Below are positions 35,016 through 39,809 of a stretch of 42,702 nt of DNA, in pieces. Under the pieces are notes generated by a model. That model saw only the letters and a list, made by a program, of their open reading frames with translations. It ran no database searches and was not told the origin of the DNA. Numbering within the stretch: position 1 is the first letter of the stretch; every line of letters begins with the position of its first letter. Origin of the DNA: a virus; the IMG/VR virus record IMGVR_UViG_3300049259_000187, positions 1 to 42,702 of that record. One strand, written 5' to 3'. The translations under genes and the position numbers were made by a program.

Positions 35016-35446
35016 GAGTCTAGGATCTCCTTCTTGGTTGGCTCGACCAGTTCCTCGGCGGCGGCGATGATCTCCGCGTGAGGTAGCTCGATGTCTGGGT
35101 ATTTCTGAACGATTACTGCCGACGCTGAAGCAGCTCCGGCGTAGGCGAAGCCTGCCGACTCGGCTTTGGCCTGGATGAGTGAAGCCTTGTTCTCGGAGCG
35201 AGCTTCACCAAGTTCGGCGATGAGCTTGGTCCGTTCCTCCTGGAGTGCGTTGACCTCCGTCTCGGAGAGCATCCCGCAGACCTTTCCGGCCTTTTCGATG
35301 ACGCTCCGCTTGAAGTAGAGGTGCTGAGAGTCGCGTCCTCCGCTCTCTGCCCCCATGTCCACGATCTCACCGTCTGCACGGCCGGTCACAAGACATTTCT
35401 TCGGCAGGAACGGGAGAGGCTTTTCGATGATTCGTATCTGTGCCAT
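35012..35446 (-). CDS. Hypothetical protein, 144 residues
   Basis: ATG 35446 shares one base with the terminase stop. The first 50 residues have KCLVTGRADGEIVDMG and HLYFKRSVIEKAGKVCGM, with two cysteines in a small beta-type domain. The centre is a charged helix (NALQEERTKLIAELGEARSE). The C terminus is Ala-rich then EIIAAAEELVEPTKKEIL. It lies between terminase and the small head genes. Not recognised. Confidence 0.7.
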   Translation of the reverse strand: MAQIRIIEKPLPFLPKKCLVTGRADGEIVDMGAESGGRDSQHLYFKRSVIEKAGKVCGMLSETEVNALQEERTKLIAELGEARSENKASLIQAKAESAGFAYAGAASASAVIVQKYPDIELPHAEIIAAAEELVEPTKKEILDS

Positions 35447-37950
35447 TAAGAGAACTTCCCTCCGAGACCTTTAGAGATTTTCTTACGGGGTTTGAAAGGA
35501 GGCGCCGTACCCGGCGTCCAGCCCCCTTCTCGGGTTGCTACGCGGGTTTTGCGCCTCTCCTTGGCGATCTGGTGCGTCATCGCTATGTAGCGCATCACGT
35601 CACAGTTGCTGACGAGGATGTCGTCGGCGAAGAACTCGGAGGGTCCGTCAACCTGAAGGCTGAAGACCGCGCTTCGTCCGGCTCTGGAGACGCCCAGCAC
35701 ACGCGCTGGAGCAAGCTCTTTTACGGGAATACCGGTTGATGACGAACGCGCTTCCGCAGTACTCGCAGTTCCGGGTCTCGTCATCGACGCCGCTCGCTCG
35801 GCGAGCTTTGGACTTGCAGTTGTTGGAGCAGAACTTGCTATGCGTGATTCCCTCGACGGTCTCGTAGGGATCGCCGCAGAAGTCGCAGGTCTCAGACTGT
35901 GCGCCACGGCCCTTCCAAACCTCTTCACCGTGAACGCGATGCCATGCGCGTCCTTCTGGCGACCTGTGCCACTCGGACGCTTTCCCTCGGACTTCGTCCA
36001 TTCGCTTCGCGGAAGCGGCAGCGCGTTCAGGCGTCCAATGTTCGGCGAGATGCTGTTTTGGGCTGAGGGCTTCGAGATTGGAGGGGTCGTTATTGCTCGG
36101 GTCCCCATCAACGTGGTGGACATGGAAGCCATCTGGGACGGGAGTTCCGTGGGCGTCTTCCCAGATGCGACGATGGAGGTAGCCGTGCCCAGTAGCCCGG
36201 AAGTAGCGAGCGTGGGAGGTGCGTTCGGAATCGGGATAACGTCTCCACCTGATTCCGGCGTATTCGACGGTCTCTGCCACATCTGGATTATATCGCCGTA
36301 CCGGAGGGAATCGAGGCGACGAAACTCACCGTCACAGTAGATCGGGTGGTCACCCGTTCCCCTCAGCCGTCCGTACTCCGTATCGAGTTCGTAAAGCTGC
36401 TCATCCGGCGACGACTGCTCCATCGCCCTGATCGGGAAGTAACCCTCTCGGGTCAGGATCAGGTCATCGAGGCAGAGCTTCTCGATGGGCGCGTCACCTC
36501 GCAACGTCTTCACCAACGTCCCCGCCGGGAAGCAGAAGTGATCGTTCTTCTTGACCACACCGAAGGAGCCGTCCTCTTTCGGATTCAGGCGGTACTTGCC
36601 GATCTCTTTCAGAAGGTGGGTGCAGCGGGAGGAGATCTGGATCAGGGGGGCGGGGTTGCCTTCGGCGTCCTTGTGGGCGAGCCGGCGCATCACCTCGAAA
36701 ACACCCGGTTCGACTTCGTTCTGCGCCGGGATCACTTTCATCCCTGCTTCCCTCCACGCCTGGTCGATGCGTTTGCCGGTCGCCAGTTCTCGCGTCCACG
36801 CGGAGGGATCGATCATCCGGTATTTCGGTTCAGGCGAAAGCCCCCACCGCTCGCGGATGTCGAAGATCCGTTCGGCGCAGTTTTCCGGAATCGCCGAGAC
36901 CCCTGACGCTTTGTACTCGTCGTAGATCAGCATCCGGCCTTCCTGGTCAAAACCCGCGAAGAGGACGGCGGTGGTCTGCTGGCCGGGGTCGATGCCGTCG
37001 ACCTGGGCGAGAGGCTTGATGCGATCCGTGTCGATCAGCGATTCGTCGATGACGTGGATGGCCGCCGAGAATTCCGGGTAGACGAGCCCTTTGAAGTGCG
37101 TGTAATTCCCCTCGGCGTAGGAGGCCCTGACGGCCTCGGGGATTTTGGCCAGCGCCCCTTCAAGTCCCTCTTTGGAGAGATAGGGGTTGTCGTAGATCGA
37201 GGAGCGGACGACGATCAGGCCGTTGGGGTAGTCCTCGGATTTCTCTTCCTCCCAGACCTGCGGGGCCTTTTCCGGTCCCTTCTTCTCCTCGAACTCGTCG
37301 TGGGTCCAGCCGAGGCCGTGGATCGGTGAGTAGGCGAAAAGCTCTTCCCCGTTGACCTCGGCGAGTCGCATCGAGGTGTTCCAACGGATTTCTTCGCCCT
37401 TGTCGCCCTTGGGTTCCTCGTCGTAGAGGACGATCTGGCGGGTGACGCCACCGAACTTGTTCACGTCCTGCTCGAGCGTGAGGAAGTCGATCATCCCCCC
37501 GTTGGCGAAGTGGAGTTGGTGGTCTTTCTCCTTCCACGCCTTTTCCCAGCTGCCCCCGCGAAGCTGCGACTCCGGCACCCATTTGTGGAGGGTTTCCATC
37601 ACCGACATCAGCGTCGCCCCGAAGTCCGGCATGATCACGCGGGCCTTGACCGGAGCCTTCCAGCGCTTGTAGGGCATCAGGTGCGGCGGGATCATGTCGT
37701 CGTCGACCAACTGGATCACCACGTAGACGATCCCTGCCGTGGACTTCCCCGAACGCGTCCCACCCATGTAGACCTTCGTCTTGGCGGGCGAGGCCATGAA
37801 GGCGACCTGCTTGGCATGAGGGCGGAACTTCTGGAGGGGGTTCTCGTCGAGGGTCGACATGACCTCGGCGAGGAGCTTCTGGACCTCCGGATCTCTCAGT
37901 TGCTCGGGAGTGGCCTCGATCTTCAGGCCGCCGGGGAGCGTGACGCTCAA
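35446..37950 (-). CDS. terL: Terminase large subunit, interrupted by an intein
   Basis: The 834-codon frame starts at TTG 37950 (TTGA overlap with the gene above). The ATPase half has Walker A GGTRSGKS (63-70) and Walker B IVLYDEEP (173-180). The nuclease half has VDGIDPGQQTTAVLF (motif I, Asp318 or Asp321), YRMIDPSAW (Asp381) and, once the intein is removed, NDHF-CDVMRYIA, the third acidic motif. Residues 473-782 are an intein splitting that last motif. The unspliced protein should therefore lack nuclease activity. After splicing the enzyme would be 524 residues, a normal size. It cuts and pumps DNA at the portal. Confidence 0.95.
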   Translation of the reverse strand: MSVTLPGGLKIEATPEQLRDPEVQKLLAEVMSTLDENPLQKFRPHAKQVAFMASPAKTKVYMGGTRSGKSTAGIVYVVIQLVDDDMIPPHLMPYKRWKAPVKARVIMPDFGATLMSVMETLHKWVPESQLRGGSWEKAWKEKDHQLHFANGGMIDFLTLEQDVNKFGGVTRQIVLYDEEPKGDKGEEIRWNTSMRLAEVNGEELFAYSPIHGLGWTHDEFEEKKGPEKAPQVWEEEKSEDYPNGLIVVRSSIYDNPYLSKEGLEGALAKIPEAVRASYAEGNYTHFKGLVYPEFSAAIHVIDESLIDTDRIKPLAQVDGIDPGQQTTAVLFAGFDQEGRMLIYDEYKASGVSAIPENCAERIFDIRERWGLSPEPKYRMIDPSAWTRELATGKRIDQAWREAGMKVIPAQNEVEPGVFEVMRRLAHKDAEGNPAPLIQISSRCTHLLKEIGKYRLNPKEDGSFGVVKKNDHFCFPAGTLVKTLRGDAPIEKLCLDDLILTREGYFPIRAMEQSSPDEQLYELDTEYGRLRGTGDHPIYCDGEFRRLDSLRYGDIIQMWQRPSNTPESGGDVIPIPNAPPTLATSGLLGTATSIVASGKTPTELPSQMASMSTTLMGTRAITTPPISKPSAQNSISPNIGRLNALPLPRSEWTKSEGKRPSGTGRQKDAHGIAFTVKRFGRAVAHSLRPATSAAIPTRPSRESRIASSAPTTASPKLAERAASMTRPGTASTAEARSSSTGIPVKELAPARVLGVSRAGRSAVFSLQVDGPSEFFADDILVSNCDVMRYIAMTHQIAKERRKTRVATREGGWTPGTAPPFKPRKKISKGLGGKFS
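35648..36280 (-). CDS. HNH endonuclease nested inside the intein in another frame
   Basis: The 210-residue frame overlaps terminase codons about 557-768 in a different phase. It begins at GTG 36280. The product has RYFRATGHGYLHRRIWEDAH, then an HNH_3 core GFHVHHVDGDPSNNDPSNLE with His53/55/56 and Asn68, and KQHLAEH with His77. Two zinc fingers follow (Cys132/135/151/155 and Cys172/175/190/194). This is a complete free-standing-type phage homing endonuclease, not a shadow. No Shine-Dalgarno is visible, but a perfect TATAAT lies six bases upstream. It is the obvious candidate to spread the intein by cutting intein-less terL genes. Splicing and nuclease functions would then be made from separate proteins. 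Confidence 0.93.
   Translation of the reverse strand: MAETVEYAGIRWRRYPDSERTSHARYFRATGHGYLHRRIWEDAHGTPVPDGFHVHHVDGDPSNNDPSNLEALSPKQHLAEHWTPERAAASAKRMDEVRGKASEWHRSPEGRAWHRVHGEEVWKGRGAQSETCDFCGDPYETVEGITHSKFCSNNCKSKARRASGVDDETRNCEYCGSAFVINRYSRKRACSSACAGRLQSRTKRGLQPSG
36287..36292 (-). promoter_or_regulatory. Perfect TATAAT for a leaderless HNH transcript
   Basis: On the minus strand TATAAT (36292-36287) is separated by six bases from the GTG at 36280, the distance expected between a -10 element and a transcript start. In the intein frame the same bases encode part of Asp-Ile-Ile, using the rare codon ATA. No good -35 is present 17 bases upstream. Confidence 0.55.
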
Positions 37951-39809
37951 ACCGCGCCGATCTTGTATTTCGCTTCCAGCGCGGCTAGCTGGGAGTGCAG
38001 TGAGGACTGCCCTTCGGCTTCTTCAGGCGCTTCGAAGGATTCGCCGACTTCTTTCAGCCGCCGTTTGTTGCGGTTGATCTTCTGTCTCGCCGTCAGCGTT
38101 TTGCCTTTGATCGGCTTGCCGTTCTTCGGTTCGGCGGTGACGGTGTTCGTGGAGGAGACGACCGAGACCGCGGCGGGAGCGGCGGAGCCGGTGAGCGTTC
38201 CCGTGGCGCTGGTGGTCCCTGGGAGAGGGGTCGATTCCTTGACCGTGACGAAGCCGCCCTTGTAGTCGGGGCGGATGATCATCGAGAGCGGCGCCGGCCC
38301 CTCCGACACAGGCGTCTTCATCACTTCGTCGGAGAAGTTGCCCGAGATCATTTCCCCGTTCCCCGCGTACATCGCCGTGTGATCGCCGGAGAAGGTGAGG
38401 ATGTCCCCGGGCTTCGCGTCGGCGATGTTCGTGCCTATGTCCTTCGCGTACTTTCCGGCCGCTCCCCATTCTTCGTAGGAGGGCGTGTAGTTGGGGTTGG
38501 CCGGAAGGGTCGAAGTCGTGAAGCCTCGGCGGGCAAGGTTGTTGGAGACCATGTTGGCGCACCAAGGGCCGCCCGCTTCGAGGCCGAAGTTGGCCGCCCA
38601 CTTCAACTGCTTGGCCGAGTTCTCCTGCACGTTGATCTGAGATTCGGCCCATTCGACGGCGCCCTTTGCGGTCGCCTTGACCTTGATCGTGTGGGTGCCG
38701 GGGTCGGCCTGGACATCAGGAAGAGCGGGACCGACCTTCATCCCGAGCGACTTGGCTTTCGTCGCGGCGCCCTTGTAGTTCTTCAGCGCTTCGGGGTTGC
38801 CCGGTCTGACATGGACCTCTCCGAGCGTCTGCTCGATCAGCGGTCCGGTTCCCCAGGCGGAGTCGGCGATGGCCTTCGCCTGAACTGCCGGAGGTTGGCC
38901 TTTGGTGGCCCTGACGCCCGCGTAGGCGGAGTTCGTGTTGTAATTCTGAGCGGTCGCATCGATGCCTTCTTTCAGGCTGCCGTATCTGATGCCAGGCCCC
39001 ATGTTGAGGAAGTTGTGGGTCTGTTCGGCTTCGGTCTGGGCGCCTTCGGACTCCTCGGCCCTTGCCTGCGCGGCGATGGTGCGGGGGTTGAGGCCGGTCT
39101 CTTTCGAGACGCCCTGGATGAACCGCCGCTGTTCTGGTCCGAGATCTCCCTCGAGCCGAGGCCGCGAATGGATGACCTGCTTCTTCGCCTGCTTCAGTTC
39201 TGCCCGAACCGCCTGCCGCTCCTGCGGGGTTCCTTTGAGCTTCGGTTCCTGCGGAGCTTTCGGCTGTTTCCCATCGATCTGAGCCTTGAGCTGCCGCCGT
39301 TCTGCCTTCGTTCCCCCATAGACGCCGGGCTGCGTTTCGATGTGCGGCTTCGTCGGCAGGGCGCGCTGATGTTCGGGGACCTTGACCTTCGTCTTCGGTT
39401 CGCTCGGCAGCGCTCGGGTATGGGCCGCGACGGTGACGGGTTTCGGTGACGTTGCTTTGTCGAGGAAGGCTTTCGAGACGTGGACTTCCCGCTTCGGAGT
39501 TTCGGCCTCGAGGGACCTGACGACTTTCCTGACCCGCTGGACCCGCCGCTTCGACTGCTGCTCCTCAATCCGGGCTCGCTGGGCCCTGACACGCTGCTGA
39601 GGCGAAGGTCCGAAGTGTTCGGTGGTCACCGCTCCGGTGGGTGAGACGGAGACCGTAGGAGCGGTGGCGGCGGTGACTTCGGTGCTGCCTGCCTCCTTGT
39701 TCCCACCTCCGCCCTTCTGGGCCGTCGGACGGACAACCGGAATCTTCGACGGGGCGACCTGCGTGGGGCGACGATTCCCCTTGCTCGGGCCGAAGATCCG
39801 GGTGGGCAT
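37947..39809 (-). CDS. Two-domain virion peptidoglycan hydrolase
   Basis: The 620-residue product has a disordered basic N terminus (1-215). A lysozyme/transglycosylase-like helical domain follows at about 225-335 (RRFIQGVSKETGLNPRTIAA, catalytic Glu candidate at 252/253; THNFLNMGPGIRYGSLKEGI). Then comes a CHAP/NlpC-type endopeptidase domain at about 385-520 with Cys417 (GGPWCANMVSNNLARRGF) and the DHTAMY box with His477. Both are peptidoglycan-cutting folds. Its location between early-late genes and terminase, far from the endolysin, points to a virion enzyme that opens the wall during entry rather than a lysis enzyme. It has no signal peptide. Confidence 0.8.
   Translation of the reverse strand: MPTRIFGPSKGNRRPTQVAPSKIPVVRPTAQKGGGGNKEAGSTEVTAATAPTVSVSPTGAVTTEHFGPSPQQRVRAQRARIEEQQSKRRVQRVRKVVRSLEAETPKREVHVSKAFLDKATSPKPVTVAAHTRALPSEPKTKVKVPEHQRALPTKPHIETQPGVYGGTKAERRQLKAQIDGKQPKAPQEPKLKGTPQERQAVRAELKQAKKQVIHSRPRLEGDLGPEQRRFIQGVSKETGLNPRTIAAQARAEESEGAQTEAEQTHNFLNMGPGIRYGSLKEGIDATAQNYNTNSAYAGVRATKGQPPAVQAKAIADSAWGTGPLIEQTLGEVHVRPGNPEALKNYKGAATKAKSLGMKVGPALPDVQADPGTHTIKVKATAKGAVEWAESQINVQENSAKQLKWAANFGLEAGGPWCANMVSNNLARRGFTTSTLPANPNYTPSYEEWGAAGKYAKDIGTNIADAKPGDILTFSGDHTAMYAGNGEMISGNFSDEVMKTPVSEGPAPLSMIIRPDYKGGFVTVKESTPLPGTTSATGTLTGSAAPAAVSVVSSTNTVTAEPKNGKPIKGKTLTARQKINRNKRRLKEVGESFEAPEEAEGQSSLHSQLAALEAKYKIGAV

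Follow-up and report, generated by a model that had tools for sequence, protein, structure and literature searches.

Between the halves of split inteins, in the fractured genes described by Dassa and co-workers in 2009, a free-standing endonuclease gene of a Vsr-like family is reportedly found. Mycobacteriophage inteins of the terminase large subunit (TerL) are reported in the ATPase domain only (PMC5050341). The ShiLan element is an open insertion in a phage methylase that has no splicing blocks and encodes an HNH endonuclease in its third frame (PMC11855218; Arsenault, Gosselin and Gogarten, 2025). Here we describe a viral TerL gene, located in the window (the whole 42.7-kb stretch of DNA that was analysed), in which a class 1 intein is very probably dual-coded with a separately translated HNH homing endonuclease in the -1 frame. 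The TerL gene and its intein comprise the following features.

35446 to 37950, minus strand: TerL gene with intein, an 834-aa open frame (phrog_2 terminase large subunit, 2e-21)
36535 to 37950, minus strand: TerL N-extein
35605 to 36534, minus strand: intein of 310 codons, from Cys1 to the terminal Asn, within the nuclease motif between NDHF and CDVMRY (empty site in L002-L004; C1 and terminal N conserved)
36265 to 36534, minus strand: intein N-terminal splicing half, residues 1-90 (pLDDT, Hint_2 match, Foldseek)
35725 to 36264, minus strand: intein-frame filler, residues 91-270, predicted to be disordered (pLDDT; identity equal to that of the unused third frame)
35605 to 35724, minus strand: intein C-terminal splicing half, residues 271-310 (pLDDT; conserved with relatives)
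35446 to 35604, minus strand: TerL C-extein

Alignment against intein-less TerL places the insertion at residues 473-782 of the open frame, exactly 930 bases. Three relatives with 92-93% TerL identity (L002, L003 and L004) have the empty site and read KKNDHF followed by CDVMRY or CDALRY with nothing between, so that the insertion boundaries are exact to the codon. As the original prediction held, the insertion splits DHxxDxxRY, the conserved motif that comes last in the TerL nuclease, and the splicing blocks it had placed at both ends of 35605-36534 are present: C1, TGDHPIY as block B, and a C-terminal FFADDILVSN followed by C. Together, Cys1, a block B containing TGDH and an SN that precedes the +1 Cys correspond in sequence to a class 1 intein, and C1 and the terminal N occur in 86 of 86 full relatives. 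Reading the insertion as a group I or group II intron was rejected, given that Rfam returned no match up to E 1 in 35300-36900. Upstream of TerL, also on the minus strand, lies a gene for a 620-aa protein (37947-39809) that is probably a lysin or virion hydrolase, with a weak Glucosaminidase match (6.3e-4, below cut-off) and a CHAP-like region seen by eye.

Modelled in the TerL frame with AlphaFold, the intein folded at its ends only: residues 1-90 and 271-310 had pLDDT values of about 85-98, mostly >94 (about 96 for the N-half and 85-97 for the C-half), and filler residues 91-270 values of about 27-44. The best Foldseek match of the folded ends was the gp41-1 intein (TM-score 0.86-0.87 by target length, E 1.5e-5), with DnaB inteins also among the matches. 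All Pfam matches of the intein were weak and below cut-off, including that of Hint_2 to the N-half (1.6e-4, below the curated cut-off). The models indicate a confident Hint fold formed by the intein halves around filler predicted to be disordered. Overlapping this filler, the same strand contains a second gene in the -1 frame.

35648 to 36280, minus strand: HNH homing-endonuclease-like gene, 210 aa, GTG start and TGA stop, -1 frame (HNH_3, phrog_15471, model)
36047 to 36181, minus strand: HNH catalytic region (HNH_3)
35816 to 35887, minus strand: zinc finger 1, C132, C135, C151 and C155 (invariant in 23 aligned sequences)
35699 to 35767, minus strand: zinc finger 2, C172, C175, C190 and C194 (invariant in 23 aligned sequences)

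The prediction of a full HNH protein with two zinc fingers in another frame was borne out by matches to Pfam HNH_3 (4.5e-16) and phrog_15471 (6.7e-40) and by the two four-cysteine fingers C-terminal of the HNH, whose eight cysteines are invariant across relatives, as are the H and N columns. The AlphaFold model of the HNH had a mean pLDDT of 95.0; searched whole with Foldseek, it gave no significant match, and a profile match to the proven homing endonuclease I-HmuI (1u3e; E 0.004) is the only link to that protein. Read in the HNH frame, the overlap has a position-wise GC of 0.62/0.55/0.67, compared with 0.62/0.39/0.85 in the N-extein, as if the demands of both frames had been balanced.

The HNH sequence served as the query to collect relatives from annotated phages and from viral and genome contigs. 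Each locus was then classed according to which frame either intein half occupies in relation to the HNH, with stop counts not used as a criterion. The nested-open layout, with both intein halves in one open frame and the HNH at -1, was found at 119 loci, among which some contigs were fetched twice, making the 96 clusters at 70% HNH identity the safer count. No locus with both intein halves had the HNH in frame with the intein in this sampling by HNH sequence. A second, independent sampling by the intein N-half, using a narrow IntN alignment because the broad one was too variable as a query, yielded 38 loci, none of them with an in-frame HNH: 32 were nested, four were endonuclease-free mini-inteins, one was split, and the last (L258) fell beyond the distance rule of the nested class, yet also has its HNH at -1. 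Judged from these sequences, TerL inteins of this family usually have a nested -1 HNH, and the one in the window is not a single odd locus. Two compensating indels in a single metagenomic contig, whether from sequencing or assembly, would look alike by displacing an in-frame HNH domain, but the frame relation is identical in all 96 clusters, including the isolate genomes TJE1 and Highwayman. With no homologue carrying the HNH in frame, we consider sequencing indels excluded, and the explanation as a whole has a negligible probability.

Stops in the filler occurred only where the intein halves appear as separate ORFs around the HNH gene. At eight further loci, the frame relation was the same but stops interrupt the intein frame, and these loci resemble a split arrangement; about 12 had intein halves in different frames. 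In most of these loci, the N-half ORF ends shortly past block B, and the C-half ORF begins at a start codon of its own. Such a split or fractured layout, exemplified by Lactobacillus phage CL2 and Vibrio phage 1.245.O, is a related state and not a refutation of the dual-coded arrangement. Another 40 loci had no intein blocks, several of them directly after an intact TerL (L180, L187 and L203). The mini-inteins without endonuclease (L256 from archaeal virus vir335, L274, L281 and L285) are in the host frame, belong to the same family and measure 129-147 aa.

Several of these loci bear on current annotation. In Tetrasphaera phage TJE1 (L085, NC_019930) and Acinetobacter phage Highwayman (L086, OZ038341), TerL is annotated as one large protein and the intein and HNH are unannotated. 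TerL is apparently split in L091 (Lactobacillus phage CL2), L089 (Vibrio phage 1.245.O), L093 (Brochothrix phage BL3) and L104-L106, where an ORF ending in the intein N-half is followed by the HNH gene and then by a small ORF with the intein C-half and the TerL end; the HNH is decayed in BL3, and the annotated TerL is consequently truncated at these loci. The Vibrio phage TerL (L089, 233-3109) apparently has a second, separate intein near the protein start (IntN match 479-730). Nested elements in TerL also occur on a Thermoplasmatales archaeon chromosome (L096, CP070724) and in a Nitrosotalea MAG (L116), which represent archaeal (pro)viruses or misbinned contigs. A DNA-level search of annotated phages found nothing near.

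It had been predicted that the intein frame is forced to stay open for about 630 bases. In the window alone, synonymous shuffling of the HNH codons always left the intein frame open (P = 1.0); this sequence by itself therefore proves little, its use as proof of selection for openness was rejected, and the case rests on the relatives. Across the 96 clusters, with GC down to 30%, codon shuffling led to an expectation of 231.6 intein-frame stops and none was seen, which supports the claim for the family, whereas the window taken alone is uninformative. The other alternative frame of nested HNH genes had about as many stops as the shuffle expects, and free-standing HNH relatives had a mean of 7.4 stops in the frame corresponding to the intein's. 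Between pairs of loci, HNH amino-acid identity exceeded filler identity, and filler identity equalled that of the unused third frame (68% for HNH, 41% for filler and 41% for the third frame in L071/L074), which points to the HNH as the constrained sequence and to a filler that is merely kept open. The chance openness of the window, together with its high GC and many spurious long ORFs, could also be accommodated by a remnant, in which this phage no longer has an active HNH or an active intein and the double frame is a legacy of GC-rich codon usage. We consider this unlikely, as the conserved HNH and zinc-binding residues, the intein C1 and its terminal Asn are all intact, and TerL, an essential protein, has an open frame to either side of the intein.

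In 92 of 96 clusters, a separate start codon is in place for the HNH, and in 51 of 96 the start is preceded by a Shine-Dalgarno sequence. An ATG lies near the conserved HNH start in 82 of 96 clusters, compared with 20 of 96 for the unused third frame, and ATG codons with a Shine-Dalgarno match of at least 4 bases numbered 47 in the HNH frame and 0 in the third frame, again of 96. These starts in relatives are consistent with the prediction that splicing and cutting come from separate translation products, by which TerL-frame splicing, HNH expression and cutting would be carried by two proteins. Programmed -1 ribosomal frameshifting from the TerL/intein frame would instead produce a TerL-IntN-HNH fusion sharing the splicing half, and the constant -1 offset of the HNH from the intein is the direction in which programmed slippage is most common. 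However, this offset places the intein in the alternative frame of the HNH that has the fewest stops anyway (a mean of 7.4 in free-standing genes, and mostly 13-40 in the other frame), and an in-frame slippery heptamer lies upstream of the HNH in only 12 of 96 clusters. Combined with the own start codons, half of which have a Shine-Dalgarno sequence, this makes frameshifting very unlikely.

The HNH GTG of the window had no Shine-Dalgarno match, and the only TATAAT in the 42.7-kb window on either strand lies just upstream of it.

36287 to 36292, minus strand: TATAAT, 6 nt ahead of the HNH start codon (GTG); candidate -10 element for leaderless transcription

With 6 nt between a -10 element and the start codon, transcripts would begin at the start codon itself, as leaderless mRNAs do. 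TANNNT ended exactly 6 nt before the start at 23 loci without a Shine-Dalgarno sequence (the window and 22 others) and at one of 51 loci with one (Fisher p 1.3e-9, a guide only, given that the pattern was noticed after viewing the data), and at the same distance before internal ATG/GTG codons in two of 232 cases. This class changed state at least 14 times on a weak tree, by which phylogeny is not fully removed. Overall, -10 matches upstream of the HNH were only slightly enriched (4.55 vs. 4.35), and the fixed 6-nt spacing in loci without a Shine-Dalgarno sequence alone stands out. The hexamer overlaps the intein motif G-D-x-[I/L], lying in the window inside the codons for intein residues GDII, and 12 of 29 Shine-Dalgarno loci with the motif also encode GAT ANN NTN. 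TANNNT thus partly follows from the intein D-x-I/L motif, which confounds the promoter reading; what carries information is that the start codon sits at a fixed distance and that this placement is nearly absent from Shine-Dalgarno loci. With this qualification, the spacing suggests leaderless HNH expression in these loci, the window included. Of the two isolate phages, TJE1 falls into the -10 class and Highwayman into the Shine-Dalgarno class. A broader reading holds that these are widespread overprinted inteins with two separately expressed products and that, in a sizeable subset including the window, a -10 TANNNT promoter inside intein codons uncouples cutting from TerL expression and its timing; we regard this combined claim as evenly poised between right and wrong.

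The checked nested insertions were all apparently in TerL and, with few exceptions, at a handful of neighbouring positions within the DHxxD motif; the clearest exception in site is a nested element on a Clostridium MAG contig (L111, about 1730-2700) at the TerL Walker B region, between N and CSFVDELD. Among 86 full TerLs, the HNH was recognisably similar in 3655 of 3655 pairs, including 2509 pairs without detectable extein similarity; L013 and L177, for instance, share 67% HNH identity and have unrelated exteins. This supports spread between unrelated TerLs, although an old shared origin plays a part as well. The HNH might alternatively serve TerL as an accessory packaging nuclease that lies inside the intein by chance of capture, considering that this family occurs inside TerL, or beside it in the free-standing loci looked at, and that the HNH protein of HK97, encoded upstream of the terminase, aids cos cleavage (PMC10448857). 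Against this, no HNH of the window's family was found in the contigs of the intein-less relatives L002-L004 (at least two of these contigs are partial), the element is present in unrelated TerLs, and it is inserted at a conserved motif of TerL, the kind of site that homing would target. A packaging role is improbable on these grounds, and a homing endonuclease remains our preferred reading.

A poorly supported tree implied at least 16 changes between nested and not-nested states, five of them forced by well-supported branches, which indicates that nested and other states have interconverted. The original prediction had also proposed the capture of a free-standing HNH gene by a mini-intein. This is compatible with the mini-inteins of 129-147 aa and with free-standing HNH genes beside intact TerL. 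The capture is, however, not a recent event in this phage. Two routes are not separated by the tree: capture into a contiguous mini-intein, or the joining of split intein halves across an HNH gene.

Taken together, we propose that the intein is translated in frame with TerL and would then splice itself out, restoring TerL. The DNA in the middle of the intein would be dual-coding, with the HNH translated separately from its own start codon, led by a Shine-Dalgarno sequence in many relatives and in the window probably on a leaderless transcript beginning at the GTG. Homing would proceed by endonuclease cleavage of intein-less TerL alleles within this motif of the nuclease, with the whole element copied during repair. 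Across the HNH gene, the intein frame would provide only disordered filler, selected for having no stop codon.

Known large inteins include the endonuclease as one of their domains, whereas here a large and diverse lineage appears to have the two in different frames, with mobility and splicing selected on the same bases and in separate proteins. This is relevant to the gain and loss of endonucleases by inteins, to the timing of endonuclease expression and to the upkeep of open filler, and it offers many natural replicates for studying long same-strand coding overlaps. It also implies that such endonucleases are missed by current annotation, as in TJE1 and Highwayman. Similar to the canonical large inteins of mycobacteriophage TerL (PMC5050341), the element occupies a conserved TerL motif, and intein-less alleles in close relatives are its presumed targets. 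However, the endonuclease of those inteins lies within the intein polypeptide and is here a putative separate product of another frame, and the insertion site is the nuclease motif and not the ATPase domain (PMC5050341). As to whether this layout has been seen before, the 2025 preprint of the ShiLan authors on a "non-canonical architecture" of actinobacteriophage inteins (10.1101/2025.01.02.630785) may, judged by its title, overlap with it.

Fractured genes resemble this arrangement in that the endonuclease is its own cistron between intein halves, and relatives of the window's HNH occur in that layout; here, in contrast, the halves form one continuous open frame across the endonuclease gene, and the endonuclease is an HNH and not Vsr-like. 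The nearest precedent is the ShiLan domain, in which the HNH is likewise out of frame but splicing blocks are lacking. In both elements, an insertion that is open in the host-gene frame encodes, in its third (-1) frame, an HNH with two zinc fingers, both are patchily distributed, and a GTG start with leaderless translation has been suggested for ShiLan too (PMC11855218). The ShiLan HNH has the domain order ZnF-HNH-ZnF and, with the ShiLan DNA checked, is only remotely similar to the window's HNH family. Without splicing blocks, the ShiLan insertion is thought to remain in the methylase, whereas the element described here appears to be a Hint-fold intein in an essential TerL.
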